The notes under the pieces are model-generated. The model saw only the letters and a program-made list of their open reading frames with translations. It was not told where the DNA came from and did no database searches. This document shows positions 44,197-59,927 of a stretch of 64,000 nucleotides of DNA, one piece after another. Position 1 is the stretch's first letter; each line of letters starts with the position of its first letter. This DNA is from an uncultured Anaerolineae bacterium (GTDB taxonomy: Bacteria; Chloroflexota; Anaerolineae; Aggregatilineales; Phototrophicaceae), in assembly GCA_937944445.1 (NCBI GenBank), contig CALDYP010000012.1, positions 1-64,000 of the forward strand. Direction: 5' to 3'. The position numbers and the translations under genes were made by a program.

Positions 44197-44304
44197 GCAC
44201 GGCAGCAGACGTTGGGCGCGTCGAACCTCTGCAGGCCGCAGGTCGCGTCCCTGCTTACTACAAGTTACAATGATGAGCAGTGTCCAACTTCACGACGGAG
44301 CGCC

Positions 44305-46350
44305 ATGCCCGCTGACGTTTTACCCGGCAAGCACTACCCCCTCGGCCCAACGGTGCACCCAGACGGGGTCAACTTCTGCGTGTTCAGCAAAAACTGCGCG
44401 CGCGTGGAGCTGCTGTTCTTCGACGACGTGGACGACTACCGCCCCAGCCGCGTGATCGAGCTTGACCCGGTGCTCAACCGTACCTTCTACTATTGGCATG
44501 TCTTCGTGCGCGGTGTGGGGCACGGGCAGATCTACGCCTACCGCGTCTATGGGCGCTATGAGCCAGAGAACGGCCTGCGCTTCGACGGCAGCAAGGTGCT
44601 GCTCGACCCCTACGCGCGGGCGGTGATGATGGGGAAGCACTACGACCGCAGCATGGGGCAGCGCTACGGCGTGGCCAACGTGCGCGAGTCGATGAAGTGC
44701 ATCGTCGTGGACACGAGCACCTACGACTGGGAGGAAGACAAGCCGCTCAACTTGCCCTATGCCCACACTGTGATCTACGAGATGCACGTGGGCGGCTTCA
44801 CCAAGCACCCCAACAGCGGCCTGCCGGACGGGCTGCGCGGGACGTATTCAGGCTTGATCGAGAAGGTTCCCTACTTGCAGCAGTTAGGCATTACCACCGT
44901 GGAACTGCTGCCCGTCGCCCAGTTTGACCCCTACGATGCCCCAGCGGGACGCATCAATTACTGGGGCTACGCGCCGGTGAACTTCTTCGCGCCCCACATC
45001 GGCTACAGCACCACCGGCAGCCCGCTGGACGCCATCACCGAGTTCCGCGACATGGTGAAGGCGCTGCACCGCGCCGGCATTGAGGTCGTGCTGGACGTGG
45101 TGTTCAACCACACCGCCGAAGGCAACCACGAAGGCCCCACCCAGTGCTTTCGTGGCTTGGAAAACCGCGCCTACTACATGCTAGAGCCGAACAACCGCGC
45201 CCGCTACGCCAACTACAGCGGCACAGGCAACACGCTCAACGTCGGCAACAGCATCGTCCGCCGTATGATCCTTGACAGCCTGCGCTACTGGGTGAGCGAG
45301 ATGCACGTGGACGGCTTCCGCTTTGACCTCGCCAGCGCCCTCACCCGCGACGAAGCCGGCCGCCCGCTCGCCAGCCCGCCCCTCATCTGGGAGATCGACA
45401 GCGAGCCGATCCTCGCCGGCGCGAAGCTCATCGCCGAAGCGTGGGACGCGGGCGGGCTGTATCAAGTGGGGTCGTTCGTCGGGGATCGCTGGGCGGAGTG
45501 GAACGGCAAATTCCGCGACGACGTGCGGCGCTTCGTCAAAGGTGACGAGAACACTGTGCCCGCGCTGGCCAGCCGCATCGTCGCCAGTCCGGACCTCTAC
45601 CACCCCAGCCGCGACCCGAACCGCAGCATCAACTTCGTGACCGCCCACGACGGCTTCACCCTCAACGACTTGGTGAGCTACAACCACAAGCACAACCTCG
45701 CCAACGGCGAGGACAACCGCGACGGAACCGACGCCAACTACAGTTGGAACTGCGGCGTAGAAGGCCCCACCGATGACCCTGATATCGAAGCGCTGCGCGT
45801 GCGCCAGATCAAGAACTTCTTGACGCTGCTGCTGCTGGCGCAGGGCACGCCGATGCTCGTGATGGGGGACGAAGTGCGCCGCACCCAGCACGGCAACAAC
45901 AACGCCTACTGCCACGACAGCGAGCTAAGCTGGTTCGATTGGTCGGCGGTTGAGCGCGAGCGTGAACTGCTGCGCTTCACCAAGAACTTGATCCGACTCA
46001 AGCGTTCGCGCTATGCCTATGTGATGGACGATTACCTCGTCAACAACGGCAGCATGCGGCTCACATGGCACGGCGTGGCGCTCGATCAACCCGATTGGTC
46101 GTCCCATTCGCGCTCGCTGGCGGTGCTGCTGCAAAGCACGATGGGCAGCGCTTACCTGATGATGAACGCCTTCTGGGAGCCGCTTGCGTTCGAACTGCCC
46201 GCCATGCCGTGGTATCGCCTGATCGACACTGCGCTGGCCAGCCCCAACGACTTCTGCCCGCCTTCAGACGCCCCGCGCCATCGCCAGCCGTTCTACCACG
46301 TAGAGCCGCGCTCGGTCGTGATGCTCGTCAACCAGCGCCGCCAGCGGTGA
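44305..46350 (+). CDS. glgX: Glycogen debranching enzyme (GH13 isoamylase type)
   Basis: The 681-aa enzyme has an N-terminal CBM48 domain (YPLGPTVHPDGVNFCVFSKN, in part) and a GH13 barrel. The four conserved regions are LDVVFNHTAEG, DGFRFDLASAL (nucleophile Asp), LIAEAWD (acid/base Glu) and FVTAHDGFTLND. It hydrolyses alpha-1,6 branches of glycogen or similar glucans in the cytoplasm. ATG at 44305 begins the CBM48 domain with GGAG four bases upstream. It is divergent from the pseudoprotease gene; no other glycogen gene is in the window. Confidence 0.95.
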   Translation: MPADVLPGKHYPLGPTVHPDGVNFCVFSKNCARVELLFFDDVDDYRPSRVIELDPVLNRTFYYWHVFVRGVGHGQIYAYRVYGRYEPENGLRFDGSKVLLDPYARAVMMGKHYDRSMGQRYGVANVRESMKCIVVDTSTYDWEEDKPLNLPYAHTVIYEMHVGGFTKHPNSGLPDGLRGTYSGLIEKVPYLQQLGITTVELLPVAQFDPYDAPAGRINYWGYAPVNFFAPHIGYSTTGSPLDAITEFRDMVKALHRAGIEVVLDVVFNHTAEGNHEGPTQCFRGLENRAYYMLEPNNRARYANYSGTGNTLNVGNSIVRRMILDSLRYWVSEMHVDGFRFDLASALTRDEAGRPLASPPLIWEIDSEPILAGAKLIAEAWDAGGLYQVGSFVGDRWAEWNGKFRDDVRRFVKGDENTVPALASRIVASPDLYHPSRDPNRSINFVTAHDGFTLNDLVSYNHKHNLANGEDNRDGTDANYSWNCGVEGPTDDPDIEALRVRQIKNFLTLLLLAQGTPMLVMGDEVRRTQHGNNNAYCHDSELSWFDWSAVERERELLRFTKNLIRLKRSRYAYVMDDYLVNNGSMRLTWHGVALDQPDWSSHSRSLAVLLQSTMGSAYLMMNAFWEPLAFELPAMPWYRLIDTALASPNDFCPPSDAPRHRQPFYHVEPRSVVMLVNQRRQR

Positions 46351-46372: not shown

Positions 46373-46520
46373 CCTCATCCCCCAACCCCCTTCTCCCGGC
46401 GCTGGCTGCAGGCAGGCCCGTTCGAGAAGGGGGCAATTTGCGGTCGCTGGGCAGGCAAAAAAGTCCCCTCTCCACGGGTGGCCGCATGGCAGGTCACTTC
46501 GCGAGGGGATTTAGGGGTGA
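46373..46520. repeat. Two family A repeat copies in tandem, each with an apical insert
   Basis: First copy: CCTCATCCCCCAACCCCCTT to GAGAAGGGGG, with the insert GGCGCTGGCTGCAGGCAGGC at 46399-46418 in its loop. Second copy: CCCCTCTCCACGG to GCGAGGGGATTTAGGGGTGA, with GGTGGCCGCATGGCAGGTCA at 46477-46496 in its loop. The element lies between convergent genes and its right end overlaps the last codons and TAA stop (46511-46513) of the glycosyltransferase gene. Confidence 0.85.
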
Positions 46521-47665
46521 GACTTGTCAGCCGCCGCCACCAGCGCGCGGTAGCCTTCTACGTAGCGCTCAGGCGAGAAGAAATCCAATGCGAAGCGGCG
46601 GGCGGCCCCAGCCAGCGCCTCAACGTGCGGATGCTGATAGGCGCAGCGCAGCGCCTCTGCCAGCGCAGGCACGTCGCCCGGCGGGATGAGCCAGCCCGTT
46701 TCGCCGTCGCGGATCAGCTCCGGGATGCCGCCGACGCGCGTGCCGATGACGGGCGTGCCAGTCAGCATCGCCTCCAGCACCACGCGCGGCAGCCCCTCCG
46801 AGAAGGACGGCAGCGCCGCCACCCGCGCGCGCGCGAAGTAGGCGGCCAGCTCGCGCTGGGGCACTTTGCCGACGAAGCGCACGCGCTCCGCCACGCCCAA
46901 CGCCTGCGCCTGCGCCACGAGCTGCGCCGCGTATTCCGCGTTCTGTGGCTCGCCGACGACGTACAGGGTCGCCTCAGGCGGGGCCGCCTGCGCGAACGCC
47001 TCGATCAGCAGGTGGACGCCTTTGCCCGGGCGCAGCACCCCGGCATACACCACGTCGACGCACTGGGCAGCTGGGCGCGCGCGCGGCACGTCGGCGAAGG
47101 CGCTCACGTCTGACCACGCCATGAAGCGCACGTGCGGCGCATGCGGCGCATAGGCCTTGCATCGTTCCTCCGTCGTCGCAGAGACGGCGCGCGTCGCGTC
47201 GGCATGGCGGAAGGCGTAGCGCGCGGCGGCCATCATCAAGCGCTGCACGAGCGGGCGCAGCGGCACGCGCCGCTGCAAAAAGAGGTCAATCTCAAAGTTG
47301 TTGTGGTTTTCGATCACCAGCCGCACCTTGTCGCCAAAGCGCTGTTTCATCCACGCGCCGACGACAGCTTCAAATGGGCTTTGGGCGATGAGCGTAACGC
47401 GCGCGCGCGGGGTGATGAGGCGGCGCAGCAGGCGTGGCATCTGCGCGTAGTAGAGGGCGTAGCGCAGCGCAGCGCGGCGCGGCGTCGGCAGCAGGTGGAA
47501 GGCCACCTCCTCGACGAAGTGCGCAGGCGTGCCAGCCGCGGCGAACCCCGTCACGAGGATTTCCTGTTCCAGCCCAGCGGCCAGCAGCCGCCACTTGGCG
47601 CGCTGCGTGTCGTCCAACGGCTGGCTGTAACGGGCGCTGCTCAGCCAGATCAGGGCGTGCGTCAA
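46511..47665 (-). CDS. GT4-family glycosyltransferase
   Basis: The 384-aa protein has the GT-B organisation of Glycos_transf_1 enzymes: an acceptor-side N-terminal half, then VVYAGVLRPGKGVHLLIEAF, VGKVPQRELAAYFARA, and the ALPSFSEGLPRVVLEAMLTG block with the two Glu residues of the donor site. The start is TTG at 47665 with AGGAAGG 6 bases ahead, and it overlaps the RNase Z stop codon by four bases. The last residues (SHP) and the stop come from a dispersed repeat. It is the last gene of an eight-gene operon with glycosidases and a GT39-like transferase, so a surface glycan is the likely product. Confidence 0.9.
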   Translation of the reverse strand: MTHALIWLSSARYSQPLDDTQRAKWRLLAAGLEQEILVTGFAAAGTPAHFVEEVAFHLLPTPRRAALRYALYYAQMPRLLRRLITPRARVTLIAQSPFEAVVGAWMKQRFGDKVRLVIENHNNFEIDLFLQRRVPLRPLVQRLMMAAARYAFRHADATRAVSATTEERCKAYAPHAPHVRFMAWSDVSAFADVPRARPAAQCVDVVYAGVLRPGKGVHLLIEAFAQAAPPEATLYVVGEPQNAEYAAQLVAQAQALGVAERVRFVGKVPQRELAAYFARARVAALPSFSEGLPRVVLEAMLTGTPVIGTRVGGIPELIRDGETGWLIPPGDVPALAEALRCAYQHPHVEALAGAARRFALDFFSPERYVEGYRALVAAADKSHP

Positions 47666-48657
47666 TAGATGCCTTCCTCGTCGATCAGGTCGTCTGTTGG
47701 CTCTGTTTGGGGGTCGATCTCGACCTTCTCCAGCGGCACGCTGCGCCCAACGCGGAAGCGATCCAAGTCGCGCACCACGTAGGCGTGCGGGAAGATGCCC
47801 TGCGCCTCGGCGATCATCTGCTTCTCGCCGTAGCGGCGGCTGATGTGGTTCAGCAGCAGCCCCTTCACGCCCATCTCAACGGCCAGCGTGGCGGCCTGCG
47901 CGGCGGTGATGTGGCCGTAGGACGCGGCCAGCTCGGCGTCTTGATGCAGGAAGGTCGCCTCGATCACCAGCGCATCCGCCCCAGCGACGACCTCGCGCAG
48001 GTTGTCCGTGCGGCCGGTGTCGCCGGTAAAGACGAGCTTTGTGCCTTTGATCGTCTCGCCGAGCACGTCGTCCGGGTGCACCTCGCGGCCATCGGCCAGC
48101 GTGATGCGCTCACCGCGCACGAGCCGACTGCGCTCGGGGCCGAAGGGCACACCCAGCGCAGCGGCGCGCTCGGGCAGAAAGGGGCGATGATCGCGCTCTT
48201 GGAACACGTAGCCCAAGCAGCCGCGGCCACGGTGCGTCACCGCAAATGCGCTGATCGTGAAGTGCTTGGCCTCGTAGATCACGCTCGGGCCTTCGACCGC
48301 GTGCAGGTTCAGCGGAATGCCCGACGAGCGGGCCGGCAGCACGACGCTGTAGAGCAGGTTGCGCACGCGCTCAATTGTCTGCGGGCTGCCCCAGATGTGG
48401 ACGTCGGCCATCGTCTCCCAGCGGGTATAAGTCGAGACGATGCCCGCCACGCCGAGGATGTGATCAAGGTGGGGGTGTGTGAGCAGGATGCGGTTCAAGC
48501 GCCGAAAGCCGATCCCCGCGCGCAGGATCTGACGCTGCGTGCCTTCGCCGCAGTCCACGAGGAAGCGTTCCTCGCCTGCCAGCACCGCCGCCGAGGACAG
48601 CCCTCGATGCACCGACGGCGCAGAAGCGGACGTCCCCAAAAAGACAATCTCAAACAC
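47662..48657 (-). CDS. rnz: Ribonuclease Z (tRNA 3' endonuclease)
   Basis: The 331-aa metallo-beta-lactamase-fold enzyme has FLGTSASAPS and LVDCGEGTQRQIL at the N-terminus, then the zinc motif LTHPHLDHILG (HxHxDH). It also has VTHRGRGCLGYVF, LVFTGDTG, the GHITAAQAA block, and NHISRRY near the end. This is the pattern of RNase Z, which removes tRNA 3' trailers. Start is GTG at 48657, two bases after the GT39-like gene. Its placement inside a glycan operon looks like operon membership by position, not by pathway. Confidence 0.94.
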   Translation of the reverse strand: MFEIVFLGTSASAPSVHRGLSSAAVLAGEERFLVDCGEGTQRQILRAGIGFRRLNRILLTHPHLDHILGVAGIVSTYTRWETMADVHIWGSPQTIERVRNLLYSVVLPARSSGIPLNLHAVEGPSVIYEAKHFTISAFAVTHRGRGCLGYVFQERDHRPFLPERAAALGVPFGPERSRLVRGERITLADGREVHPDDVLGETIKGTKLVFTGDTGRTDNLREVVAGADALVIEATFLHQDAELAASYGHITAAQAATLAVEMGVKGLLLNHISRRYGEKQMIAEAQGIFPHAYVVRDLDRFRVGRSVPLEKVEIDPQTEPTDDLIDEEGIY

Positions 48658-48659
48658 GC

Positions 48660-50675
48660 TTACTCACCAATCTCTACTGTGTATAGGATCAAGCGGTCGC
48701 CGCGCCGCTGCTGGGTGGCGTCGAATACCGGCAGCCGCGCCAGCGTCTGCTGCCGATACGCGCCGACGGACACCCAGTATGGGCCGGGCAGCAGCGTCGT
48801 TCGCAGTCGAATCGGCACAAGCTGCACGAACACGTCGCGCTCGCGCAGGTAGCTCACGTCCACGCTGATCATGTCGCGGTTGTCCGCCACGGTCACAAGG
48901 TCGCTCAAGAAGTGGGTGAAGAACTGCAAGTCTGGTGGAATTGCGCCGCTCTCGACGCGCCAATAGTTGACGACAGTGATCTCATCGCCCGGGCTGTAGC
49001 GGCGGTCGCGGTCGGGTTCGTTGCCGAGCCACGTGATGTTGCCGCCGAAGCGGATCGGCGGGTTAACCGGCGGATCAAGCTGGGTCGTCTCGCCGTAGCG
49101 CGCGGCCACCGTCGTGGTGAACATCCCTAGACGATCCGCGAGGATCGAAGCGACGTCCATCTCCAGCACGCGCGCGGGTGGCAGGTCGGCGTCGACGAGC
49201 GGCGTGCCCATCGTCAGCCACTCGCGCAGGTAGGGCGGCGCGGTATCGAGCGCGTCGGGTTCCACCAAGAGCACGCGGAACTGTTCGCCGCCGCGCGGGA
49301 AGATCAAGCCGGTGTTGCAATCGACGAAGCGCACGTTGGCCAGCGGGCGGCGGTTGGTCATGAGGATCAGGCGCTGCGTCGCATTCAGGGTGCGCCCCCC
49401 GCCGGGGCCGCTCACCTGCGGGTAGCAGATCACCGTCGGGATTGCGCCGGTCTGGCGGTCAAGGAAGCGCGCCAACTGGTGCAGGTCAGTCTCATAGGCC
49501 TGACGCACTGACGCTTGCGCTGGCCACACCGTGAGCAAGTCGCGCCCCGTCCAGAACAGGTTGAACCCGCCCAGCGCCACCAGCCCGACCGCCAGCACAG
49601 GGCGCAGCCGCTGCGGGGCGCGCGTCAGCAGCAGGTGCACCGCCGCCCCAAAGCACAGCGCCAGCGGAACCATCCACGCGGCCATGTCTGAGTAGTTGGG
49701 CGCAGCGTCCGCCAGCAGCGCCACCGGCGACATCGCCAAGAGGAACACCCCCACCAGCACGTAGCGCGCGTAGCGGCGGAACCACACAATCGCCGCCACG
49801 CCCCCCACGATGAGCAGCGCCGTAAGCGGGTCAAACAGCGGGCGGCTCGGCAGGTTGTGCGCGGGGTTTTGATCGCCGCTGACCATCAGCGCGGCAAGGC
49901 TGTTGAGCAGGCTGCCGCCGACGTCGTCGAACCCGCCGATCAAATGGCCGCCAGAGTTCAGCCCGGGCCGGTTGATGCTGAAGATCAAGTAAGGCATGGT
50001 CAGGATGATGACGATCAGCACGCTGAAGCCGATGTAGCTCAGGCGCTGACGGTCAAACGGGCGGCTGAGCACGGCATAGACGATGAAGATCATCGCGCCC
50101 AGCGCTGCCAGCAGCCCGACCGGGTGCAGGTAGAACGCCACGCCCAGCGTCGCCCCCAATGTGGCAAAGGCGGTCGTCGTCGCGGTTTCCTCACGGGCGA
50201 CGCGGTAGACGGGCACAGCCCGCGCCAGCGCCAGCATCACCACCACCACCACCAGCGGAACCAGCCCATCGATCGAGATGCTGCGCGCCAGCAGCGTCGG
50301 CCAGAAGCTCAGCGCCAGCAGCGCCATCGCCCCCAGCCCCGCCAGCACGCCGAACAAGCGCACTGCCAGCGTGTATACCAGCGTCAGCGTCACCAACGAC
50401 GCTAGGACGAACGTCCAGCGCAGCGCGAACGGCCCCGCCCCCGTGAAGGCCGTCGTGACGGCCAACGCCGTTGGGCCGAGCATCTCGACGCCGCGCCCGG
50501 GCGCTTCTTCAAACAAGATGGTAATCGTGCCGCGGCGCGCGGTCTCCATCAAGCGGATGGTCTGCTGTTCGCGCGCGGTCAGGCCAGCCGGCAAATCTGC
50601 CACCTGCGCCATGCGCAGCGCCGCCGCCAACAGCAGCAGCAGCAGCGCGATTCCATAACTCACCCGTGATGACAA
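48660..50675 (-). CDS. GT39-like polytopic membrane glycosyltransferase (divergent)
   Basis: The 671-aa protein has about eleven hydrophobic segments in its first 450 residues and a soluble C-terminal domain of about 220 residues. The arrangement, with TAREQQTIRLMETARRG in the first loop and ALRWTFVLASLVTLTLVYTLAVRLFG after it, resembles GT39/ArnT-type transferases, but the usual D-E and HPP residues of loop 1 are not conserved. The C-terminal domain resembles that of the protein at 4194-6317 in length and beta content. It is cotranscribed with RNase Z and a GT4 enzyme. Transferase activity is inferred from fold only. Confidence 0.7.
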   Translation of the reverse strand: MSSRVSYGIALLLLLLAAALRMAQVADLPAGLTAREQQTIRLMETARRGTITILFEEAPGRGVEMLGPTALAVTTAFTGAGPFALRWTFVLASLVTLTLVYTLAVRLFGVLAGLGAMALLALSFWPTLLARSISIDGLVPLVVVVVMLALARAVPVYRVAREETATTTAFATLGATLGVAFYLHPVGLLAALGAMIFIVYAVLSRPFDRQRLSYIGFSVLIVIILTMPYLIFSINRPGLNSGGHLIGGFDDVGGSLLNSLAALMVSGDQNPAHNLPSRPLFDPLTALLIVGGVAAIVWFRRYARYVLVGVFLLAMSPVALLADAAPNYSDMAAWMVPLALCFGAAVHLLLTRAPQRLRPVLAVGLVALGGFNLFWTGRDLLTVWPAQASVRQAYETDLHQLARFLDRQTGAIPTVICYPQVSGPGGGRTLNATQRLILMTNRRPLANVRFVDCNTGLIFPRGGEQFRVLLVEPDALDTAPPYLREWLTMGTPLVDADLPPARVLEMDVASILADRLGMFTTTVAARYGETTQLDPPVNPPIRFGGNITWLGNEPDRDRRYSPGDEITVVNYWRVESGAIPPDLQFFTHFLSDLVTVADNRDMISVDVSYLRERDVFVQLVPIRLRTTLLPGPYWVSVGAYRQQTLARLPVFDATQQRRGDRLILYTVEIGE

Positions 50676-50715
50676 TTACATGTCCTAACACACTGCGGAC
50701 TGAAGCAAGCGCCCA

Positions 50716-51222
50716 TTATAGCGCAGTTGCCGCCGCGCTGCAGGCCAGAACGGCCACACCCAGCGCGGCCAGCAGCCCCGTCAGCCGCACTTCAGCGCGG
50801 CGTAGGCGCTGCCACTCGGCGGGGTCGCCTTTGCTGTGTGCCATCAAGAGGCTGACGCGCTCCAGTGACGGCGCAACGCCGTATTGCAGCGCGACCCCCG
50901 CCGCCATCATCCCCACGATGAGCAGGTGCTTGAGCAGCATGATGCGGCTCCAATCGTTGTCGAACGTCAAAAAGCCGTCGTAGTTGGGGTCAGCCGTCAT
51001 CTGAAGCAGACCCGTCACCCACAGCGCGGCCAAGCACAAGTTGCTGATCGGGTAAAAGCGCTGGCGCAGCCGCGAGAGCACCCGATAGAAGGCGGGCTGC
51101 CCGTCGATGACGCGGCGCACCTCTGGGAACACCAGCAGCGTCGTCACCAGCAGCCCGCCGATGTAGACGACCGTCGCCAAAATGTGGACGAATAGGCTAA
51201 GGGCAAGACTTGACGAGTCCAA
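50716..51222 (-). CDS. CopD-like four-helix membrane protein
   Basis: The 168-aa protein has four hydrophobic segments and the start LSLFVHILATVVYIGGLLVTT, close to the first helix of CopD/PcoD-type domains with its conserved His. LLKHLLIVGMMAAGVALQ is the third helix with another His. A role in copper handling or as a heme-free relative is possible, not proven. The TTG at 51222 is chosen because GGAGG lies 9 bases upstream; this start is inside the end of the preceding glycosidase gene, giving a 26-base overlap. A longer start at 51276 would overlap by 80 bases. Confidence 0.7.
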   Translation of the reverse strand: MDSSSLALSLFVHILATVVYIGGLLVTTLLVFPEVRRVIDGQPAFYRVLSRLRQRFYPISNLCLAALWVTGLLQMTADPNYDGFLTFDNDWSRIMLLKHLLIVGMMAAGVALQYGVAPSLERVSLLMAHSKGDPAEWQRLRRAEVRLTGLLAALGVAVLACSAAATAL

Positions 51223-52402
51223 TGTATTCTTCCTCCGTCGCGTCGGGTTTGCCTTCTGGGACGACGAACTCATCACAGAACTTGGGCATGCGCATCATGG
51301 CCATCAACGCGGGGCTGTGGAAGCGGTCAAACGTGCTGAGCGACCACCAATATTCTTCATTGGATTGATCCCAGCCGGGCTTTTGCAGGTAGATGGCGCT
51401 CACCAAGCCCACCCACGGGCGCCAATGCTGGACGATGTAATCATACGCCCGCAGCATGTAGGCCTCGCGCTGCTGCTCCGTCACGGCGAACCAACTGTAC
51501 TCGGGGTGGATCGGGTCGGTCGTGTAGCCCATCTCGAGGATCGCCATCTGGCGGGCGCTGTCGTTGTAGAGCAGCATGATCTTGCGCAGATCCTCCACGC
51601 GGCGGAAGCTGGCCCAACGCCCGCGCCCGTCGCGCTCGGCGTCGTCAGGGCCGTACTCCGGCGCTGAGAAGCCCGGCGCGTGCACCCCGACGGCGTCCAC
51701 GTGCTGCTGAAAGCCCGCGCGGTACATCGCGTCGAGGAACACGTCATCGGGGACGGCAGTTGCGTCGTGCGTGCCAGTGGGGGCCAACCCCGCCGAGATG
51801 ACGCGCGCTGCCGGGTCAGCGGCGCGGATGGCCGCGCTGCACGCCGCCAGCAGCCGCGTGTAGCCCACAGCGTCCGGCGGTTGATTGCCCCACTCGCGGC
51901 TGAGGTTCGGCTCATTCCACACTTGATAGCCCACGATCCGCCCGCGGTAGCGCGCCGCCAGCGTGCCGCAGTAGGCCGCCCACGCCGCCAGATCGTCGGG
52001 CGGGGTGTCGTGCTTGTCGTCGCTGAAGGCGCTGCCGGGCGCAGCCCACGCGGGCACTTGGCCCAGCCGCGCCACCACGCGGATGTTGCGCCGCTCGGCC
52101 TCGTGCAGGATGCGATCCGCCTGCGTGAAGTCCCATTGGCCGGGCTGTGGCTCTAGATCGCGCCATGCGAAGGTCTGCTTGATCGTGTTGAAGCCCAGCA
52201 TGGTCACCGTGTCCATCTGGTAGCCGAAGTAGCCGGTATCCCACCAGCCGAACACTTGAATGCTGTACGTGAGGGATGGAAAGGCGGGGCTGCGGACGTC
52301 CGCGCCCCGAAACGGGTCAACAGGCCGCAGCGCCCACGCCGCCCCTGCCATCAGCAGCAGGGTCAGCAGCGCGCCGCCGCCCGCTAGGGTACGTCGGGTC
52401 AT
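51197..52402 (-). CDS. Secreted clan GH-A glycosidase-like protein 4 (operon order)
   Basis: The 401-aa product has a signal peptide or membrane anchor (LLTLLLMAGAAWA) and a TIM-barrel glycosidase pattern: LEPQPGQWDFTQADRIL in the strand 2 region, WNEPN with the acid/base Glu at E164, and AILEMGY with the candidate nucleophile E290. Overall it resembles GH5/GH39-type retaining enzymes. It differs from the three upstream relatives in lacking the CxTEFG/FTELGY nucleophile wording and the PT-rich linker. A Tyr/Trp-rich C-terminus (SAIYLQKPGWDQSNEEYWW) is unusual. The substrate is unknown. Confidence 0.82.
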   Translation of the reverse strand: MTRRTLAGGGALLTLLLMAGAAWALRPVDPFRGADVRSPAFPSLTYSIQVFGWWDTGYFGYQMDTVTMLGFNTIKQTFAWRDLEPQPGQWDFTQADRILHEAERRNIRVVARLGQVPAWAAPGSAFSDDKHDTPPDDLAAWAAYCGTLAARYRGRIVGYQVWNEPNLSREWGNQPPDAVGYTRLLAACSAAIRAADPAARVISAGLAPTGTHDATAVPDDVFLDAMYRAGFQQHVDAVGVHAPGFSAPEYGPDDAERDGRGRWASFRRVEDLRKIMLLYNDSARQMAILEMGYTTDPIHPEYSWFAVTEQQREAYMLRAYDYIVQHWRPWVGLVSAIYLQKPGWDQSNEEYWWSLSTFDRFHSPALMAMMRMPKFCDEFVVPEGKPDATEEEYIGLVKSCP

Positions 52403-52408
52403 CAGTGG

Positions 52409-53830
52409 TTACTGCCGTCCTGTGCGCCGATTGTAGTCGAACACCCATTCACCGATGGCGTCATACGCTGGACGGAAGGTGAAGCCCGGCCCGATGAGCG
52501 AGTACGGCACGTTGTCGTTGTCGGGGTTGTAGCCCGCCTGTGGGCCGTAGTTGAGGTTCCACACGATCGCCAAGCGGGTGAAGCCCGATTCCTCCATAAA
52601 GCTGAGCGCCTGCGGGAACCACTCGGCTTGCTCGGCGAGGGTGTTGTCCTTAGCGAACTCAAAGCCCGCGGGGTAGCCCTCTAAGTCCTCGGCCACCGCC
52701 CAACCGAACTCCGTCACGCACAGCTTCATCTCGCTGCCCGCCGCGCGGATGCGGTTGGCGTAGCCCTCTAATGTGCTGCGGAAGCTCCAACTGTGGTGCG
52801 GGTTGTCGAACGGCCCGCGGAACTGCGCGGTGGGGTCGTTGAAGCCCTCATCCCAGCGCACGAGGGGCGGCATGTTGTAGCCGTTGGCGTGCGCGCCGTA
52901 GCAATCGGCGTAGTTGAGCACGCCCGCCTGAATGAGCATATCGGTGTAGCGGAAGTCGTTGATAGCGCTCACGCCGTCGTCCCAGCCGGTCGGTGAGAGC
53001 GCGCCGGTGATGATCAAGATGCCCGGGTCAACCGCTTTGACGGCGTTGTAGGTCGCTTGCAGCAGCGCCACGTAGTTGCGCGCGCTCAACCCGTTGGGGG
53101 AAGACCACTCGCGGTCAATGTTCATCTCGTTCCACACCTCGATCGCGGCCACCTGTCCCGGGTAGCGCTCGATGACCTTCAGCACGAAGTCGACGTAGTC
53201 CTGCACGTTGGCGGGTGGCCCCTGCTTGCTGAGGTCAGCGCCCGGCTCGCGCGCCCAGTCCGGCGCGGTGACGATGCTCAAGGCCTGCTTGATGCCGAGG
53301 CGCTCTGCCGAGGGCATCACGAGGTCGAGAATGGCCCAATTGTACTCGTTGGGGTTCGGCTCAAAGTCGCGCCAGCGGACTTGCGTCTTGACCCACTCCA
53401 TGCCGAGGTCGTTGCGCACGCTGCGGTAGAAGCCGTCTTGGTTGTTGGGGTTGAAGTCGAGCGAGAACTGCACCTGAATGCCGACTTCAAAGCGGTTGTC
53501 GAACGCCGGGGCGAGCGTCGGCAGCGGGGTAGGCGAGGCGGCCTCCGGCGCAGGGATGCTGGGCGTGGGCGTGACGAACTGCGCCACGACCTGCGGTTCC
53601 ACGGTGGGGCTGGGGGTGACGGGCAGCGGCGTCTGGCTGGGGATCACCAGCGGCTGTGAGAGCGCCACGTTGAGGTTTTCATCGTCGCGCGGGGCGTTGG
53701 GCGAGCTGTACGTGAAGTAGATCGCCATGAAGGTTGCCAGCCCCATCACCAGCGTGATGAACGTCCACACCAGCACAAAGCTGCGCAGTTGGCGCTGCGT
53801 CTGTTTCACACGAAGGGTGTTTGTTGTCAT
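52409..53830 (-). CDS. Membrane-anchored clan GH-A glycosidase-like protein 3
   Basis: The 473-aa product has one N-terminal membrane segment (about 18-40) without a clear cleavage site, then a Pro/Thr-rich linker (about 60-108) and a TIM-barrel domain. The acid/base Glu is E235 in EVWNEMN and the nucleophile candidate is E374 in CVTEFGW. ATG at 53830 is chosen because AAGGAG lies 8 bases upstream; the longer frame has no membrane-compatible start. It lies 6 bases before the next gene. The topology puts the barrel outside the cytoplasmic membrane. Confidence 0.85.
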   Translation of the reverse strand: MTTNTLRVKQTQRQLRSFVLVWTFITLVMGLATFMAIYFTYSSPNAPRDDENLNVALSQPLVIPSQTPLPVTPSPTVEPQVVAQFVTPTPSIPAPEAASPTPLPTLAPAFDNRFEVGIQVQFSLDFNPNNQDGFYRSVRNDLGMEWVKTQVRWRDFEPNPNEYNWAILDLVMPSAERLGIKQALSIVTAPDWAREPGADLSKQGPPANVQDYVDFVLKVIERYPGQVAAIEVWNEMNIDREWSSPNGLSARNYVALLQATYNAVKAVDPGILIITGALSPTGWDDGVSAINDFRYTDMLIQAGVLNYADCYGAHANGYNMPPLVRWDEGFNDPTAQFRGPFDNPHHSWSFRSTLEGYANRIRAAGSEMKLCVTEFGWAVAEDLEGYPAGFEFAKDNTLAEQAEWFPQALSFMEESGFTRLAIVWNLNYGPQAGYNPDNDNVPYSLIGPGFTFRPAYDAIGEWVFDYNRRTGRQ

Positions 53831-53855
53831 GTTCGGGTCTCCTTGACCTTGCGAC

Positions 53856-56732
53856 TTATCGGGCGGCGGCCAGCGCATCACAGGCTGGGCAGCCCCCGCC
53901 CGGGCGGATGATGGCGAAGCCCGCCATCGGATCTGCCCCATAGTACGTGAAATCCACGTTCCAGACAATCATCATGCGCACGCGCCCGCTCTGCGAGAGC
54001 AGCGCCGCCGCCTCGGCCAGCCATGCGGCCTGCTGCCCCACCGTGACGCCGCTGGCCCACGCGAAGTACGGATCAAGCGGCGGGTAGCCCTCCGGCGTGA
54101 GGTAGCCTAGCTCGGTGAAGCACAGCGGCTTCTGCCCGCCGGTGATGTTCCAGTAGCGGTCGAGCAGCGTGCGCAGGTAGCGCGTGTAGTAGTTGTCGCG
54201 CGGGTCGCCGCTGGTCATGCTGGGCGGGACGATGCCCTCATTGTAGTGGACGCCCACGCAGTCGGTGTAGTTGAGGCCGCCCGCCGCCACCATCTCGGCC
54301 AGCCAGCGGTCGTCGTTCATCACGCGGCCGGGGTAGGCGGCCTCCGCGCCGGTGGGGCCGGGGGCGGCGCTGATGACAGCGACAGACGGGTTGCGGCTCT
54401 TAATGGCGTTGTAGGCGATGCGCAGCATGTTGGTGTAGGCCGCCCCGCTGATCTGGCCGGTCGGCCACTCGCGGTCAAGGTTCGGCTCGTTCCACACCTC
54501 AATCGCGTCGGGGCCGTAGCTGGCAATCGTCGCCAGCCAGTTGGCGTAGCCCGCGATGAAGCCGTCCCCACCCGCCGCGAGGTCGCCGGGGTTGCCCACC
54601 GTGCCGATGAGCGCCTTGAAGCCGCTCTGCCGCGCGAGGTTGATGTAGTTGGCGGCGGCGCTGGCGTCCGCGCCCGGCGAATAGCGCACCTGCACCTTGA
54701 GCCACGTCATGCCCGCGCGCTGCATGGCGCTGATGGTGGCGGCGCTGCTGGCGTTCGACACGTGCCCGCCGTACTCAAACTGCCCCACGCGGATGCTGCC
54801 CGCGCCGGGGCGAACGGCTCCCCAGTTGCCACCGCCGCCAGCGCTGCCCGCCGGGGCCGCTGTAGCCACGATGGGCGCGGGGGTCGGGGTGGCCGTCGGC
54901 AGGGGGGTGGGCGTGGCCGTCGGCAGGGGGGTGGGCGTCGCGGTCGGCTCGAAGAGGGCGACGACCGCGCCGCTGCGCGGGCTTTCCTCGACGTCCTCGC
55001 CGATGCCAGCAATCGCCACATTGACGGCATAGTTGCCGTCGGGCGCGTTGAGGACGGTCTCCAACTCTTGCCCGAGCGGGGTGATGATCTCTTGCAGCAG
55101 GCCGTTCGTCCCCTCAATCCGCCAGCGCAGCACTAAGTCCGTCGGTGAGACGGCCGGCGGAACCTGCGCGCGATAGTCGCGGATTGCGCTGCTAACGCCC
55201 TCGGCCAAATCCGACGCGAGCAGGTCATAGAAGGCCGCGCCCGCCAGCGCAAAACCCGCGCCTGCGTCCAAGCGCCAGCGCAGCGCGTTGCCGGTCATCA
55301 ACCAGACGCGGGCAGCGCGGCTGCCGTCCGCGTGGAGGTAGTCCACATACGGGGCGTTGAGGCGCGTGTCCACGCCGGCCAGCGCCGGGCGACCGTCTAA
55401 GCGCGCCCGAATCGTCGAGCCGGGCATGACTACCCCGCCCGCGGTCTGCGGCGCGCTGACGACCACGTTGCCCAGCGCAGCAAGGCCTTCATTATAGCCC
55501 ACCGAGGTATAAGCCGCGTTCAACTCGCGGATAGAACGGGCGGTCATGCCCATCATCAAGCGAGTGCGATCGACCTCGCGCACGGCCCACGTGAACATCG
55601 CGCGGGCGTATTCACGCTCGCCTTGCAAGTAGGCCTGCGGCTCAAGCGGCATGTTGACCTGCACGAAGTCGGCGTAGTGGCCGATCTGCTGCCAGTCATA
55701 CGCGCCAGTGTCCCACTCGCCGAGGTGGTTCATCGGCGCAGGGACGACTACGCCGAGCTTCATGCGCGTCGTGTTGAGCTGGCCGCGCAGCTCGCGCAGG
55801 AAGGCGCTGAAGTTGTCGCGCTGGTCGGCGCTCAGGCCGCGGTAGTCGATCCAAACGCCGTCAAATCCGCCCGCCGCCAGCGAGGCGATCTGGCGCGCGT
55901 GCTCGCGGCGCAGCGCGGGGCTGCTCAAGAGGAGGTTGACCGTCTCGGTGTCGAGCGCGCGCGGGTCGGCAAAGTCGCGCAGGATGGGCATCACCTGATA
56001 GTCCGCGGCGAGGTCGAAGCCGGGCGCGAGGCTGCCGGTCAGCGCGCCGTTGAGCATCGGCTGCAAGCCGGCTGGCGCGACGATGTCGGCGATTGCGGCG
56101 GCCTCGGCGGTCAAGAGTTGCGTGAGGTCGTACTGCACCACCACCAGCGGCGGGGGCGGCGCAGCTTGGAAGAGCGCCACCGCGTCGTACTTGCGCGCGG
56201 TGACGGCCTCGAAGCGGCGGCCATTGTAGCGCGAGGGGATGAACTCCCAGCGGGCGTTGGCGCGGTCATAGCCGTAGACGTCCAGCACTTCCGGTTGGGC
56301 GGCGCTCGGCTCGACCAAGCTGAAGCTCAGCAGGGCATCGTTGGGCTGGCGATACTGCACGCGGTAGACGTCGCTCAGCAGGGCGAGGGTGCGCGGCAGC
56401 GCGGCCTGTGCCTGCCGCACCCAGTCTGAGGCGTCACCGCCGTAGGCGAACGTCACCAACGGGACGCGCCCCAATGTCAGATCCACGGCTGGCCCGCTGA
56501 CCAGCGAGACGCGCAGCCCGTCTTCCGCTGTGGCGGCGCGGCTGCCCGGCTGGCTCAACGGGGTGTACTGCACGCCGAACAGCCGATCATAGAGGCTGAA
56601 GGGCGGCAGGAACAAGCCCACCAGCACCATCAGCCCTGTGATCAGCGCGGTGGTGATCAGAATGGTCGCGCCGCAGCCGCGCGGCAGGCCGTCCGCTTCT
56701 GCCTCGTCCAGCGACGGATCATAACTCGTCAT
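53856..56732 (-). CDS. Membrane-anchored two-domain protein: GH18-like (inactive) plus clan GH-A glycosidase-like
   Basis: The 958-aa protein has a membrane segment at about 22-44, then a GH18/YaaH-like barrel to about 480. In that barrel FDGVWIDYRGL carries Arg298 where the family's catalytic Glu is expected, so it should be inactive. A PT-rich linker built of PTATPTPLP units (around 600-640) leads to a second barrel, about 310 residues, with WNEPNLDREWPTGQ and FTELGYLTPEG; this is close to the protein at 56763-58079. Both end in CPACDAL. ATG at 56732 has AAGGGG 6 bases upstream. It is probably a glycan-binding plus glycan-cleaving surface enzyme. Confidence 0.85.
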   Translation of the reverse strand: MTSYDPSLDEAEADGLPRGCGATILITTALITGLMVLVGLFLPPFSLYDRLFGVQYTPLSQPGSRAATAEDGLRVSLVSGPAVDLTLGRVPLVTFAYGGDASDWVRQAQAALPRTLALLSDVYRVQYRQPNDALLSFSLVEPSAAQPEVLDVYGYDRANARWEFIPSRYNGRRFEAVTARKYDAVALFQAAPPPPLVVVQYDLTQLLTAEAAAIADIVAPAGLQPMLNGALTGSLAPGFDLAADYQVMPILRDFADPRALDTETVNLLLSSPALRREHARQIASLAAGGFDGVWIDYRGLSADQRDNFSAFLRELRGQLNTTRMKLGVVVPAPMNHLGEWDTGAYDWQQIGHYADFVQVNMPLEPQAYLQGEREYARAMFTWAVREVDRTRLMMGMTARSIRELNAAYTSVGYNEGLAALGNVVVSAPQTAGGVVMPGSTIRARLDGRPALAGVDTRLNAPYVDYLHADGSRAARVWLMTGNALRWRLDAGAGFALAGAAFYDLLASDLAEGVSSAIRDYRAQVPPAVSPTDLVLRWRIEGTNGLLQEIITPLGQELETVLNAPDGNYAVNVAIAGIGEDVEESPRSGAVVALFEPTATPTPLPTATPTPLPTATPTPAPIVATAAPAGSAGGGGNWGAVRPGAGSIRVGQFEYGGHVSNASSAATISAMQRAGMTWLKVQVRYSPGADASAAANYINLARQSGFKALIGTVGNPGDLAAGGDGFIAGYANWLATIASYGPDAIEVWNEPNLDREWPTGQISGAAYTNMLRIAYNAIKSRNPSVAVISAAPGPTGAEAAYPGRVMNDDRWLAEMVAAGGLNYTDCVGVHYNEGIVPPSMTSGDPRDNYYTRYLRTLLDRYWNITGGQKPLCFTELGYLTPEGYPPLDPYFAWASGVTVGQQAAWLAEAAALLSQSGRVRMMIVWNVDFTYYGADPMAGFAIIRPGGGCPACDALAAAR

Positions 56733-56762
56733 GAACGCCCCTTCTCAAAATGTCCACCACGG

Positions 56763-58079
56763 TCAGCGCCCCAGCGCGTCGCAGGCGGGGCAGCTTCCAT
56801 CTGGGCGGATGATCGCGTAGCCTGCCATCGGGTCATCGCCGTAGTTGGTAAAGTCCACGTTCCAGATGATGAGCACGCGCACGTTGCCGCTGCGGCGCGC
56901 CATGTCCACCACTTGGCGCAGCCACGCGGCCTGCTGGCCCACGGTGACGTTGCTCGCCCACGCGAAGCCGCCCGGCAGCGGGCCGAGGCCCTCCGGCGTC
57001 AGATAGCCCAACTCGGTGAAGCACAGCGGGCGGCTGCCACGGAACGCGCCAGAGTAGACGCTCACCATGCTCGGGTAGTAGCGCGTGAAGTACTCGCTGC
57101 GTGGGTCGCCGCGGGTGACGGTGGGCGGGACGATGCCCTCGTTGTAATGCACGCCCACGCAGTCCATGTAGTTGGCTGCGCCCGCGGCGGCCATCTGCTG
57201 GAGGAAGACGGCGTCATCACAGCCGCCGGCCTGACACCCGCCAAAGAAACCCGTTGGGGCGGGCGCGCCGCTGATGACGAGCGTGTTGCGGTTGGCCCCT
57301 TTGATGGCGTTGTAGGCGCGCGCCAGCAGTTGGGTGTAGGTCGCCCCGTTGACTTGGCCCGTGGGCCACTCGCGGTCGATGTTCGGCTCATTCCACACCT
57401 CGATCGCGTCCGCGCCGAGGGCGGCCAGACCCGCGACGAACCCCGCGTACTCGTCGAAGTAGCCATCGCCCAACACTTCTGAGGGCAGCCCCACCACGCC
57501 GAGCATGATGCGGAAGCCCTTGCTGTGCGCGTCGGCGATCAAGCCCGCGAAGTCGTTGGGGTTGCCGCCGCGGAAGTAGCGAACCTGCTTCTTGACCCAC
57601 GTCATGCCCGCGCGGCGCATCGCGTTGACTGTGCCCTCGTTCAGCGAGGCGACATGCCCACCGTAGCTGAAGCCGCGCACCGGCGACCCGGCCACGACCG
57701 GCGCGGGCAGGTTCCCGCCGCTGGGGGCCGCGGGCGCAGGCGGCGCGCCGCGGGGCGGGGCAGCCACTGTGATCGGCGCGTCACGGGCGATCACCGGCAG
57801 CGGCAGCACTTGGTTCAGCCGCAGCCCCAACGCCCCGAAGACCATCCAGCCCACTTGGCCGCGCTCGGTGATGCCGCGCACCCACTGGCCGTCCTCGTTG
57901 CGCCCGTCGAGCGCCACCGCAGTTCCAACGGGCAGCACCGTGATTCGATCCCACTCTGTGCCCGGCCCCGTGCGCAAGGTGAGACGCTGCTGCACCGTGA
58001 CGATCAAGCCCTCTTGGGCGCTCAGCGGCAGGCTGGTCAGCAGCAGCGCGACGAGCAAGAGCAGTATAGATGCCCTCAC
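56763..58079 (-). CDS. Secreted SH3b plus clan GH-A glycosidase-like protein, first gene of the glycan operon
   Basis: From GTG at 58079 the product is 438 aa: signal peptide MRASILLLLVALLLTSLPLS ending AQ, an SH3b domain (23-90, LRTGPGTEWDRITVLPVGT), a Pro/Ala linker, and a TIM barrel with acid/base E231 (WNEPN) and nucleophile candidate E356 (CFTELGY). The C-terminus is IIRPDGSCPACDALGR, shared with the next gene. The frame is open upstream to 58268, but a promoter at 58237-58264 would start transcription inside that region, and those codons are repeat-derived. The GTG and its GAGGGG site lie inside the repeat. SH3b suggests cell-wall binding. Confidence 0.85.
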   Translation of the reverse strand: MRASILLLLVALLLTSLPLSAQEGLIVTVQQRLTLRTGPGTEWDRITVLPVGTAVALDGRNEDGQWVRGITERGQVGWMVFGALGLRLNQVLPLPVIARDAPITVAAPPRGAPPAPAAPSGGNLPAPVVAGSPVRGFSYGGHVASLNEGTVNAMRRAGMTWVKKQVRYFRGGNPNDFAGLIADAHSKGFRIMLGVVGLPSEVLGDGYFDEYAGFVAGLAALGADAIEVWNEPNIDREWPTGQVNGATYTQLLARAYNAIKGANRNTLVISGAPAPTGFFGGCQAGGCDDAVFLQQMAAAGAANYMDCVGVHYNEGIVPPTVTRGDPRSEYFTRYYPSMVSVYSGAFRGSRPLCFTELGYLTPEGLGPLPGGFAWASNVTVGQQAAWLRQVVDMARRSGNVRVLIIWNVDFTNYGDDPMAGYAIIRPDGSCPACDALGR

Positions 58080-58175
58080 CCCTAAATCCCCTCTCCCGTG
58101 GAGAGGGGACTTGAGCCAACTTCTCCAACTGGCTTGCCTGCGGCCAGCCCGGGAGAAGGGGGTTGGGGGATGAGG
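58074..58175. repeat. Family A repeat in the leader of the glycan operon
   Basis: Read on the minus strand: CCTCATCCCCCAACCCCCTT, then an apical insert (GGGCTGGCCGCAGGCAAGCC, about 58150-58131), GAGAAGTTGG, AAGTCCCCTCTCC, ACG, GGAGAGGGGATTTAGGGGTG and AGG. The inner CCCCTCTCC/GGAGAGGGG pair is a perfect 9-bp stem with a 3-base loop. Its 3' arm is the only Shine-Dalgarno-like sequence ahead of the first gene. Confidence 0.88.
58077..58093 (-). promoter_or_regulatory. Repeat-borne ribosome binding site and GTG start, SD in a hairpin arm
   Basis: GAGGGG at 58088-58093, spacer ATTTAGGG (8 bases) and GTG at 58077-58079, all on the minus strand. The GAGGGG is wholly inside the 9-bp GC-rich hairpin, so translation should be low unless the hairpin is opened. 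Layout is identical to 31703-31719. Confidence 0.6.
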
Positions 58176-58236
58176 TGTCTTAATAAGTCTTTGTGTCATC
58201 TTGCCAAACCTGAGTAAACTGTTAACCTTGTCAGGC

Positions 58237-58264: not shown

Positions 58265-58306
58265 GCATGGGCCTTGTCTTTTCATCTGAAGCGTAGAGCA
58301 GTCGTC

Positions 58307-59083
58307 ATGAACGATCCGATCACCTTGCACGCTCATCCCAACGGCGTTTACACGCTCACGTTTAACCGTCCAGAGGCGATGAACGCGCTCAACCGCGCCG
58401 CCATGCTTCAGTTTGCGGATGTCATCCGCCAGCTTGAAACGGACGCCGCCCTGCGCGCGCTGATCGTTACTGGCGCGGGGGAAGCAGCCTTTTGCAGCGG
58501 CGGCGACCTTGTGGAGCTGCGCGCTCAGCCGACAGAAGCCGATGCCCGCGCCATGATCGACCTGATGGGCGACGCGCTGCACGCGCTGGAGCGGCTGCCC
58601 GTGCCGGTCATCGCGGCGATCAACGGCTACGCGCTGGGCGGCGGCAGCGAGATCGCCCTTGCGTGTGACCTGCGCATCGTCGATGAGGCTGCGCGCATGG
58701 GCTTCGTGCAGATCAACATGGCGCTGACCCCCGGCTGGGGCGCAGGCCAGCGGCTGGCGCGGCTCGTCGGCGCTCCTAGAGCGCTGGAGCTGCTGCTGGA
58801 CGGCCAACCGCTGAACGCTGAGGGGCTGCTGGCGTTGGGGCTGGCCAACGAGGTTGCCCCCCGCGGCAAGGCGCTGGAGGCTGCCCTGCGCCGCGCGCAA
58901 GCAGTTGCCGAACGCCCGCCGCAGGTCGTCCGCGCGATCAAAGCCCTGCTGCACGCCCATCGCACCCTGCCGTATGAGGCTGCCCTCCAAGCCGAGCGCG
59001 ACCTCTTTCCGCCGCTGTGGGCGCACCCTGACCACCTGCAAGCCGTGGAAGCCTTCTTCGCCCGCCAAGCGCGCAAAGGCTGA
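58307..59083 (+). CDS. Enoyl-CoA hydratase/isomerase (crotonase) family protein
   Basis: The 258-aa protein has the crotonase oxyanion segments FCSGGDLVEL and NGYALGGGSEIALACDLRI, the latter with the first catalytic Glu. The second catalytic Glu, normally in a QPEI-like context, is not conserved: the segment reads FVQINMALTPGWGAGQRL. It may therefore not be a classical hydratase; isomerase, thioesterase-like or decarboxylase activities exist in the family. ATG at 58307 fits the family start; the ribosome site is weak. It is divergent from the glycan operon and followed by a methyltransferase. Confidence 0.88.
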   Translation: MNDPITLHAHPNGVYTLTFNRPEAMNALNRAAMLQFADVIRQLETDAALRALIVTGAGEAAFCSGGDLVELRAQPTEADARAMIDLMGDALHALERLPVPVIAAINGYALGGGSEIALACDLRIVDEAARMGFVQINMALTPGWGAGQRLARLVGAPRALELLLDGQPLNAEGLLALGLANEVAPRGKALEAALRRAQAVAERPPQVVRAIKALLHAHRTLPYEAALQAERDLFPPLWAHPDHLQAVEAFFARQARKG

Positions 59084-59159
59084 CGCCTCACCCTTCGATG
59101 CGCGGCCTTTGTCGGGTAGGATGAACGCATCACAACAAGCACTGAAGGCAGTCGTCAAT

Positions 59160-59927
59160 ATGTCCGCGTTTTACACCACTGTGGCCCGCTTCTACGACGC
59201 TGAAACCGCCGACCGCGTGGACGATCTAGCGCTCTACAGCCGCCTCGCTGAGGAAGTCGGCGCGCCCATCTTCGACGTGGGATGCGGCACGGGGCGTGTG
59301 CTGCTGCATCTGGCGCAGGAAGGCCACCGCGCGCACGGCGTTGACAACGACGCGGCCATGCTCGCCCGCTTAGAGCGCAAGCTCACCGGCCTGCCTCACC
59401 TGCGCGAGTTCGTCACCTATGAGCAGGCCGACATCCTCACCTATCGCCCGTCGCAGCGCTACCGGCTGGCGCTGCTGACCTACAACGCGCTCATGCACTT
59501 CCACACGCAAGAGGCACAGATCACCTTGCTCAAGCGCCTGCGCGCGCTGACCGCCGAGGGCGGCCTGCTCGTGATCGATCTGCCCAACGCCGGCGAGACC
59601 TTCGCCACGCAGGACAGCGACGCCCTGCTGTTGGATCGCACCTTCATCGACCCCGAAAGCGGCCACCTCATCCTGCTCCAATCGCACAGCGTGCTCGACC
59701 GCACGACGCAGCTGCTGCACGTCAAATGGATTTACGACGAGGTCGACGCGGACGGCGTGGTGCGGCGGCTGATCGCGCCCCACGTCCTGCGCTACTTCTT
59801 CTACCCTGAGATGACCCTGCTGCTGAAGCTGTGCGGCTTCCGCGTCGAGGCGGTCTACGGCGGCTGCGAGGAAGAGCCGTTCGAGGACGGCTGTGAGCGG
59901 ATGGTGATCTATGCGCGCCCTGAGTAG
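59160..59927 (+). CDS. Class I SAM-dependent methyltransferase
   Basis: The 255-aa protein has FYDAETADRVDD at the start and the SAM motif I FDVGCGTGRVLLHLAQEG. Motif II is HGVDNDAAMLARLERKL, followed by YRLALLTYNALMHF and GGLLVIDLPN. This fits Methyltransf_25-like enzymes acting on small molecules. ATG at 59160 is preferred because the family normally starts just before the FYD block; AAGG lies 11 bases upstream. An ATG at 59121 is possible. It overlaps the following lipoprotein gene by 17 bases. Confidence 0.85.
   Translation: MSAFYTTVARFYDAETADRVDDLALYSRLAEEVGAPIFDVGCGTGRVLLHLAQEGHRAHGVDNDAAMLARLERKLTGLPHLREFVTYEQADILTYRPSQRYRLALLTYNALMHFHTQEAQITLLKRLRALTAEGGLLVIDLPNAGETFATQDSDALLLDRTFIDPESGHLILLQSHSVLDRTTQLLHVKWIYDEVDADGVVRRLIAPHVLRYFFYPEMTLLLKLCGFRVEAVYGGCEEEPFEDGCERMVIYARPE

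Follow-up and report, generated by a model that had tools for sequence, protein, structure and literature searches.

Eight close-packed genes, G1 to G8, occupy positions 58079-46511 on the minus strand of the window, the whole stretch of 64,000 nucleotides from the metagenome-assembled genome of an uncultured Anaerolineae bacterium (Chloroflexota) that was analysed here. Spacings between successive genes, computed from refined gene starts, are 30, 25, 6, -26, 40, 2 and -4 nt. A preliminary description of this DNA had the coordinates, strand and count of eight genes right, and its gaps of 30, 25 and 6 bases and overlaps of 26 and 4 bases match the refined starts. Four of the eight genes (G1-G4) encode related TIM barrels with predicted export signals, behind front ends that are as first described. 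G1 (56763..58079, minus strand like all eight; GTG start) carries a predicted signal peptide, an SH3b domain and a PslG-like clan GH-A barrel with a CPAC tail; a longer open reading frame, reaching 58268, is possible. G2 (53856..56732) combines a predicted membrane anchor, a GH18-like domain, a PT linker and a clan GH-A barrel, likewise with a CPAC tail. A membrane anchor, PT linker and clan GH-A barrel are predicted for G3 (52409..53830), and a signal anchor for G4 (51197..52402), whose clan GH-A barrel is the closest of the four to PslG/GH39. Downstream lie G5 (50716..51222), a CopD/DUF4149-like multi-span membrane protein whose TTG start falls 26 nt inside G4; G6 (48660..50675), a PMT_2/ArnT-like GT-C membrane glycosyltransferase with a C-terminal extension; G7 (47662..48657), an RNase Z (tRNA 3'-processing) of metallo-beta-lactamase fold; and G8 (46511..47665), a GT4 glycosyltransferase (PF13692, 128 bits). 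A scan for single-gene promoters returned 1 promoter-like site against 1.0 in shuffles, i.e. chance level.

As proposed at the outset, the four barrels are related: G1 and G2 share 56% identity over 303 aa, and the other pairs ~31-32% by BLASTP (E 1e-17 to 1e-40). All four carry a W-N-E-x-N motif and a second motif, E-x-G. The Glu pair is kept in 28/28 G1, 31/32 G2, 35/35 G3 and 32/32 G4 proteins, each Glu being present in 126 of 127 barrels. In clan GH-A, the acid/base Glu follows strand 4 and the nucleophile Glu lies on strand 7. An AF2 model of the G1 barrel (pLDDT 95.8) places E96 after strand 90-93 and E221 within strand 217-224, so that the predicted fold agrees with the clan rule, and the pair is conserved in all four groups.

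A Foldseek search with the G1 barrel returned PslG as its first match (5.5e-15). Through the G1 model, PslG aligned with Z 24.6 (rmsd 3.2, 278 aligned), tied with the GH39 structure 5jvk at Z 24.3, the next match reaching 21.2. Sequence-profile matches to PslG were 2.8e-22 for G4, 1.6e-15 for G3 and 0.0011 for G1, the last a weak link. The Pfam GH39 family (PF01229) was matched by G4 at 27.6 bits (cut-off 26), with G1, G2 and G3 below; no Pfam GH family exceeded its cut-off in G1 or G3, and GH18 alone did so in G2. Judging from sequence profiles and the predicted fold, we conclude that the four barrels belong to clan GH-A with PslG/GH39 as nearest solved kin, although the fold lists allow other GH-A families, and we class them as GH39-like, not as GH39 members. 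An origin of the barrels in unrelated families, named beforehand as the outcome that would count against a common set, is contradicted by this shared kinship and by their mutual homology.

In a tree of 101 rows chosen by hand, G4 formed a single clade (100/100) spanning five families, and G3 required 2 changes. G1 and G2 lay close together and intermingled with lone relatives, so the tree does not establish a one-to-one origin of these two. The CPACDAL C-terminus noticed in two of the proteins is real and conserved in G1 and G2. It is no novelty of the operon, since 66 of the 75 kindred barrel proteins that do not come from the 34 cluster loci also have a CPxC tail (a set that includes proteins from five duplicate contigs and from some cut-off clusters). 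On sequence grounds, the CPAC tail is a general feature of the barrel family.

The closest comparison is PslG, a retaining endo-beta-glucosidase of family GH39 that belongs to the Psl cluster of Pseudomonas aeruginosa. The block's barrels share with it the clan GH-A fold and the two catalytic Glu, together with export and membrane association (both predicted here) and a position alongside polysaccharide genes. PslG is present in one copy, whereas the block encodes four paralogues with wall-binding front ends in a single-membrane host and is not surrounded by a complete Psl-type synthesis cluster. PslG and the G1 model are ~16% identical in structural alignment.

An SH3b domain (SH3_3) occurs in 16/17 G1 proteins and LysM in 19 of 48 lone relatives (set A9, 48 of the listed relatives' proteins); Pfam finds no wall-binding module in the window's G3 and G4. 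A hydrophobic N-terminal stretch is present in 28/28 G1, 25/32 G2, 34/35 G3 and 29/32 G4 proteins, and lipobox-like starts were read by eye in G3 and G4 of loci L143 and L145. Omp85 was found in 0 of 10 genomes, with controls positive in 7 of 14. Taken together, the SH3b and LysM modules and the membrane anchors, with no Omp85 in the genomes searched, suggest that the proteins act on the wall of the cell itself, and we infer export and a corresponding topology in vivo.

The N-terminal half of G2 matches PF00704 (35.9 bits) and SleL/YdhD-type proteins, and has the GH18 barrel fold (Z 29.2 to 4q6t, 5jh8 and 4s3k) of the SleL/YaaH/YdhD-type spore cortex enzymes. It differs from these in its PT-linked fusion to a clan GH-A barrel and in the loss of the catalytic Glu of DxxDxDxE, replaced by Arg in 31/32 proteins and by Ala in 1/32; we therefore rejected G2 as an active GH18. 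The same half of G2, with the SH3b and LysM modules, would suit a reading in which the barrels are peptidoglycan hydrolases that cut the wall backbone, or a modified wall glycan, in growth and cell separation. Cwp19, an enzyme with peptidoglycan activity, is among the Foldseek matches of the G1 barrel (rank 18, 5.2e-8), and a RodZ-like gene, named by eye, recurs near the cluster in 9 loci. Yet an exopolysaccharide endoglucosidase is the nearest kin in both sequence and fold, Pfam shows no wall-binding module in the window's G3 or G4, and the GH18 half is without its acid residue; we hold this reading to be unlikely.

The membrane protein G5 has PF05425 in 28/28 cases, the window protein scoring 36.1 bits for Pfam CopD (cut-off 32.1). 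It shares this domain with CopD/DUF4149 proteins but is short and single-domain, overlaps a glycosidase gene and scores 29.9 against the 195 bits of the NCBI CopD equivalog, so that an identity as copper CopD is rejected. G5 has His residues that are invariant among its relatives. The G4-G5 overlap, including the start codon, is conserved in 24/28 pairs. G6 carries PF13231 in 30/30 cases; like ArnT/PMT GT-C enzymes it has a PMT_2 domain (26.3 vs 26.1 bits) and a profile match to ArnT (5ezm, 9.7e-9). Its long C-terminal extension sets it apart, and a score far under the equivalog cut-off (17 vs 567 bits) rejects it as ArnT. G7 is the genome's best RNase Z match (NF000801, 255.9 bits, cut-off 252; TIGR02651, 274.3, below 293), conserves the HxHxDH motif (H61, H63, D65, H66) and is probably a co-transcribed housekeeping gene. 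The view that all members are glycan genes thus fails for G5 and G7, by family. A same-strand GT4 gene within 2.5 kb of G7 was present in 0 of the 22 loci with room to test, and the best relatives of G8 are located elsewhere in their genomes. G8 is a local addition outside the conserved block. Of the two transferases said to be cotranscribed with the barrels, the GT-C enzyme probably shares one transcript with them; because the GT4 gene is not conserved beside the block, an eight-gene unit is unsupported.

All seven genes G1-G7 stand in the same order and on the same strand in 21 of the 34 loci that hold at least five of them (loci with fewer were excluded), and gene order is broken in only one (L124). 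L042, L044, L047, L060 and L095 were dropped because their contigs equal in length those of L122, L124, L134, L135 and L140, of which they were taken to be duplicates. Twenty family regions were hand-picked from genomes with matches, of which 18 passed and L127 and L132 failed; set A3 comprised the window and 61 loci out of the 80 that were named. Barrel kin were present in 61/61 family genomes and the G3 profile matched in 144 of 150 class genomes, the core being reduced to G2-G3-G4 in other families of the class (L148, L149, L150, L152). Family f29 has no barrel kin. We conclude that G1-G7, excluding G8, form a block conserved across the window's family.

A priming sugar transferase (PF02397) lies between G5 and G7 in both loci read of family f37 (n=2) and close to the cluster in 3 of 4 f37 genomes; none adjoins the cluster in the remaining 19 of the 23 genomes searched. 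We conclude that in this family it replaces G6. PF02397 is absent from the window's contig, its own genome carrying the domain on contigs C45, C11 and C18; the priming transferase that a Psl-type exopolysaccharide operon holds within its cluster is therefore missing in the window and found in the f37 relatives.

Within the block, RNase Z and the CopD-like protein are no less conserved than the glycan genes, and a fixed gene order is by itself no proof of one pathway. The block could be a conserved neighbourhood only, its GH-A array, CopD-like, PMT and RNase Z genes co-transcribed for expression without a shared pathway; the occurrence of RNase Z away from the barrels in genome G070 and in the barrel-less genome G086 is in keeping with this. 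We judge it distinctly unlikely, considering the retention of the G4-G5 overlap and the fact that in f37 the position of G6 is occupied by a membrane sugar transferase of another type.

A role in secreted carbohydrate catabolism, with foreign polysaccharides as food, would fit the plant-glycan enzymes among the matched Pfam families and the slightly raised glycoside hydrolase numbers that PMC10608941 attributes to Anaerolineae. However, the block encodes neither a sugar importer nor a regulator or accessory exo-enzyme, its proteins appear to be tethered, not released, and barrel kin occur throughout the family in fixed order. We consider such a role quite improbable.

On slightly better than even grounds of sequence, models and analogy, we favour G1-G4 as surface-tethered PslG-like endoglycosidases that remodel a wall-attached polysaccharide of the cell itself. 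The analogy with PslG, the endoglucosidase of the Psl exopolysaccharide, builds on PMC11912335 and PMC9075953. The four proteins would be retaining endo-glycosidases of clan GH-A that are exported across the one membrane of the cell and stay on its outer face, held by a lipid, a membrane anchor or a module that binds the wall. They would cut the cell's own wall-attached polysaccharide as PslG cuts Psl, and this polysaccharide would thereby be released, shortened or remodelled. On that side of the membrane, G6 may transfer sugars from a lipid carrier, and G5 would act as a membrane partner whose translation is probably coupled to that of G4. The pseudo-GH18 half of G2 may bind a GlcNAc-containing wall glycan instead of cutting it, and RNase Z would be a housekeeping passenger of the block. 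Where the preliminary description had the set build and trim a polysaccharide, trimming is plausible and the better supported part; building is weak, with one PMT/ArnT-like transferase, and Pfam and curated-model searches identified no flippase, polymerase or chain-length gene in the window's operon.

A wider reading, doubtful when all its parts are taken jointly, is that of an undescribed class-wide envelope system of single-membrane Chloroflexota. An ancient set of three to four specialised PslG-like endoglycosidases with a G2-G3-G4 core, each tethered differently to membrane or wall, and a CopD-like membrane protein coupled to them in translation would jointly process a wall polysaccharide peculiar to the lineage. 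The set would decide filament or cell separation, just as PslG does with Psl-linked chains. None of the titles and abstract openings listed from one paper library for Anaerolineae or Chloroflexi with GH39, PslG-like proteins, or RNase Z and CopD describes the block. Anaerolineae are abundant and mostly uncultured, and their surface glycans are little known; a family-wide block supplies expressible enzymes with which to identify such a glycan, as well as a marker for it.

An interspersed repeat flanks the operon, one copy (58074..58180, minus strand) running into the start of G1 and a second, inverted copy (46380..46522, plus strand) lying at the opposite end. As ends of a mobile unit these copies are disfavoured: the genome has 13 copies of the repeat core, and conservation of the block is family-wide, so ordinary intergenic repeats are more likely.

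The window lies on one (C12) of the 92 contigs of a 3.2-Mb assembly that is 81% complete. Eight genes, here called G1 to G8, run along its minus strand from 58079 to 46511, with spacings of 30, 25, 6, -26, 40, 2 and -4 nt. Pfam and NCBIfam assign a barrel to each of the first four proteins, preceded by SH3b in G1, a membrane anchor and a GH18-like half in G2, an anchor in G3 and a signal anchor in G4; G5 is CopD-like, G6 a PMT_2 protein, G7 an RNase Z and G8 a GT4 transferase. The preliminary description had proposed that the four barrels are related, and pairwise identities, common motifs and a tree of 101 barrels bear this out. The G1 and G2 barrels are 56% identical, other pairs about 31–32% with strong E-values, and W-N-E-x-N and a second E-x-G are common to all four. 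In the tree, every G4 falls in a single clade (100/100) with members from five families, G3 forms nearly one clade, and G1 and G2 are adjacent and intermingled with lone relatives, i.e., barrel proteins encoded elsewhere. This topology suggests that the paralogy of G3 and G4 is ancient; the G1/G2 split is less clear.

Using a model of the G1 barrel (pLDDT 95.8), Foldseek returned PslG as the top match (5.5e-15), and VIA gave Z scores of 24.6 for PslG and 24.3 for the GH39 structure 5jvk, the rest being three units lower. Sequence profiles also reach PslG (2.8e-22 for G4, 1.6e-15 for G3). All four barrels look active, because both catalytic glutamates are retained (28/28 G1, 31/32 G2, 35/35 G3 and 32/32 G4 proteins). 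PslG is a retaining endo-beta-glucosidase (PMC11912335); it is located at the inner membrane and in the periplasm, and P. aeruginosa lacking it forms long cell chains joined by Psl (PMC9075953). The N-terminal half of G2 folds as a GH18 domain, its closest structures being SleL-type proteins and bacterial chitinases (Z 29.2); its catalytic glutamate is replaced by Arg in 31/32 proteins, and this half is most plausibly a binding domain.

An N-terminal hydrophobic stretch was found in 28/28 G1, 25/32 G2, 34/35 G3 and 29/32 G4 proteins, counts that mechanical start calls may depress, and in two loci of family f37 G3 and G4 have lipoprotein-like beginnings (by eye). Omp85 was absent from 10/10 genomes searched, with controls positive in 7/14, which agrees with PMC10608941 and PMC10284905, where Chloroflexota are regarded as monoderm. 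An SH3_3 front end is present in 16/17 G1 proteins and LysM in 19/48 lone relatives; one of the latter, in the window's own genome (C18:6739-7644 plus flanks), combines two LysM-like repeats (by eye) with the same barrel and the C-terminal CPAC tail. Judging from domain content, these front ends are predicted wall binders.

To assess conservation, we sampled 20 family regions and 80 named loci and, with five duplicate contigs removed, kept 34 loci with at least five of G1–G7. All seven genes are present, in order and on one strand, in 21/34; another 12 miss one or two, some at contig ends, and order is broken in a single locus (L124), where G6 and G7 are inverted at another place. Block orthologues among the family regions are mostly 27–71% identical; gene order has therefore outlasted much sequence divergence. 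G4 and G5 overlap by exactly 26 nt in 24/28 pairs, as in the window; the G5 start codon is mostly TTG, often with a GGAGG-like box ahead, and the kept overlap is a sign of probable translational coupling. The GT4 gene is outside the conserved unit, because none of the 22 loci with room has a same-strand GT4 downstream; the best match to G8 in a same-genus genome sits on a different contig. The unit first described is real, but its conserved part comprises seven genes.

Nor is it wholly a glycan operon, as had been supposed, given RNase Z and G5, whose family is CopD/DUF4149-like in 28/28 with invariant His and Lys residues. Of the proteins of the window's genome, G7 matches RNase Z best, and the same holds in the three other tested genomes that have it in the block; RNase Z lies away from the barrels in genome G070 and is present in the barrel-less G086. 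RNase Z is most likely a passenger. G6 is weakly ArnT-like, and in f37 a PF02397 priming sugar transferase replaces it between G5 and G7 (L143:6818-7459, L145:7116-7751); PF02397 occurs near the cluster in 3/4 f37 genomes and 0/19 other genomes searched. Since one slot holds either of two unrelated membrane sugar transferases, albeit in two lineages only, a glycan role is favoured. We conclude that the seven-gene block carries a tethered, multi-paralogue set of predicted PslG-like endoglycosidases. The best reading, held with modest confidence, is that this set trims the cell's own wall polysaccharide.

Named relatives belong to Chloroflexota, chiefly Anaerolineae MAGs, with one exception labelled Bacteroidetes. 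Barrel kin are present in 61/61 genomes of the window's family, and 107/201 genomes sampled from the phylum match the G3 barrel profile; scores drop sharply outside the order. The G3 profile is matched by 144/150 class genomes; all six misses belong to family f29, whose 12 listed genomes (including G086, G119, G146, G168, G187 and G204) are all unmatched. The block is whole or nearly whole in two further families of the order (L141, L142), f37 retains G2-G3-G4-G5 plus RNase Z (L143, L145), and other class members retain a G2-G3-G4 core (L148, L149, L150, L152).

Among recurrent neighbours, named by eye, are a RimO-like radical-SAM gene (16 loci) and a RodZ-like gene (9 loci); in 10 loci RNase Z has a gene of roughly 215 aa beside it or close by (e.g., L136:3743-4390). 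Divergent genes upstream in the window (58274-60753) encode an enoyl-CoA hydratase, a methyltransferase and a lipoprotein-like protein, recurring in 9, 22 and 17 clustered loci, window included. An isoamylase/GlgX-like gene (44212-46350), convergent with the operon, belongs to no recurrent neighbour family among the compared loci. An interspersed repeat flanks the operon on both sides, with its two copies in opposite orientations (46380-46522 and 58074-58180), and one of these copies contains the GTG start of G1; the 19-base repeat core has 13 copies in the genome at no more than one mismatch, against 0 for the reversed control.
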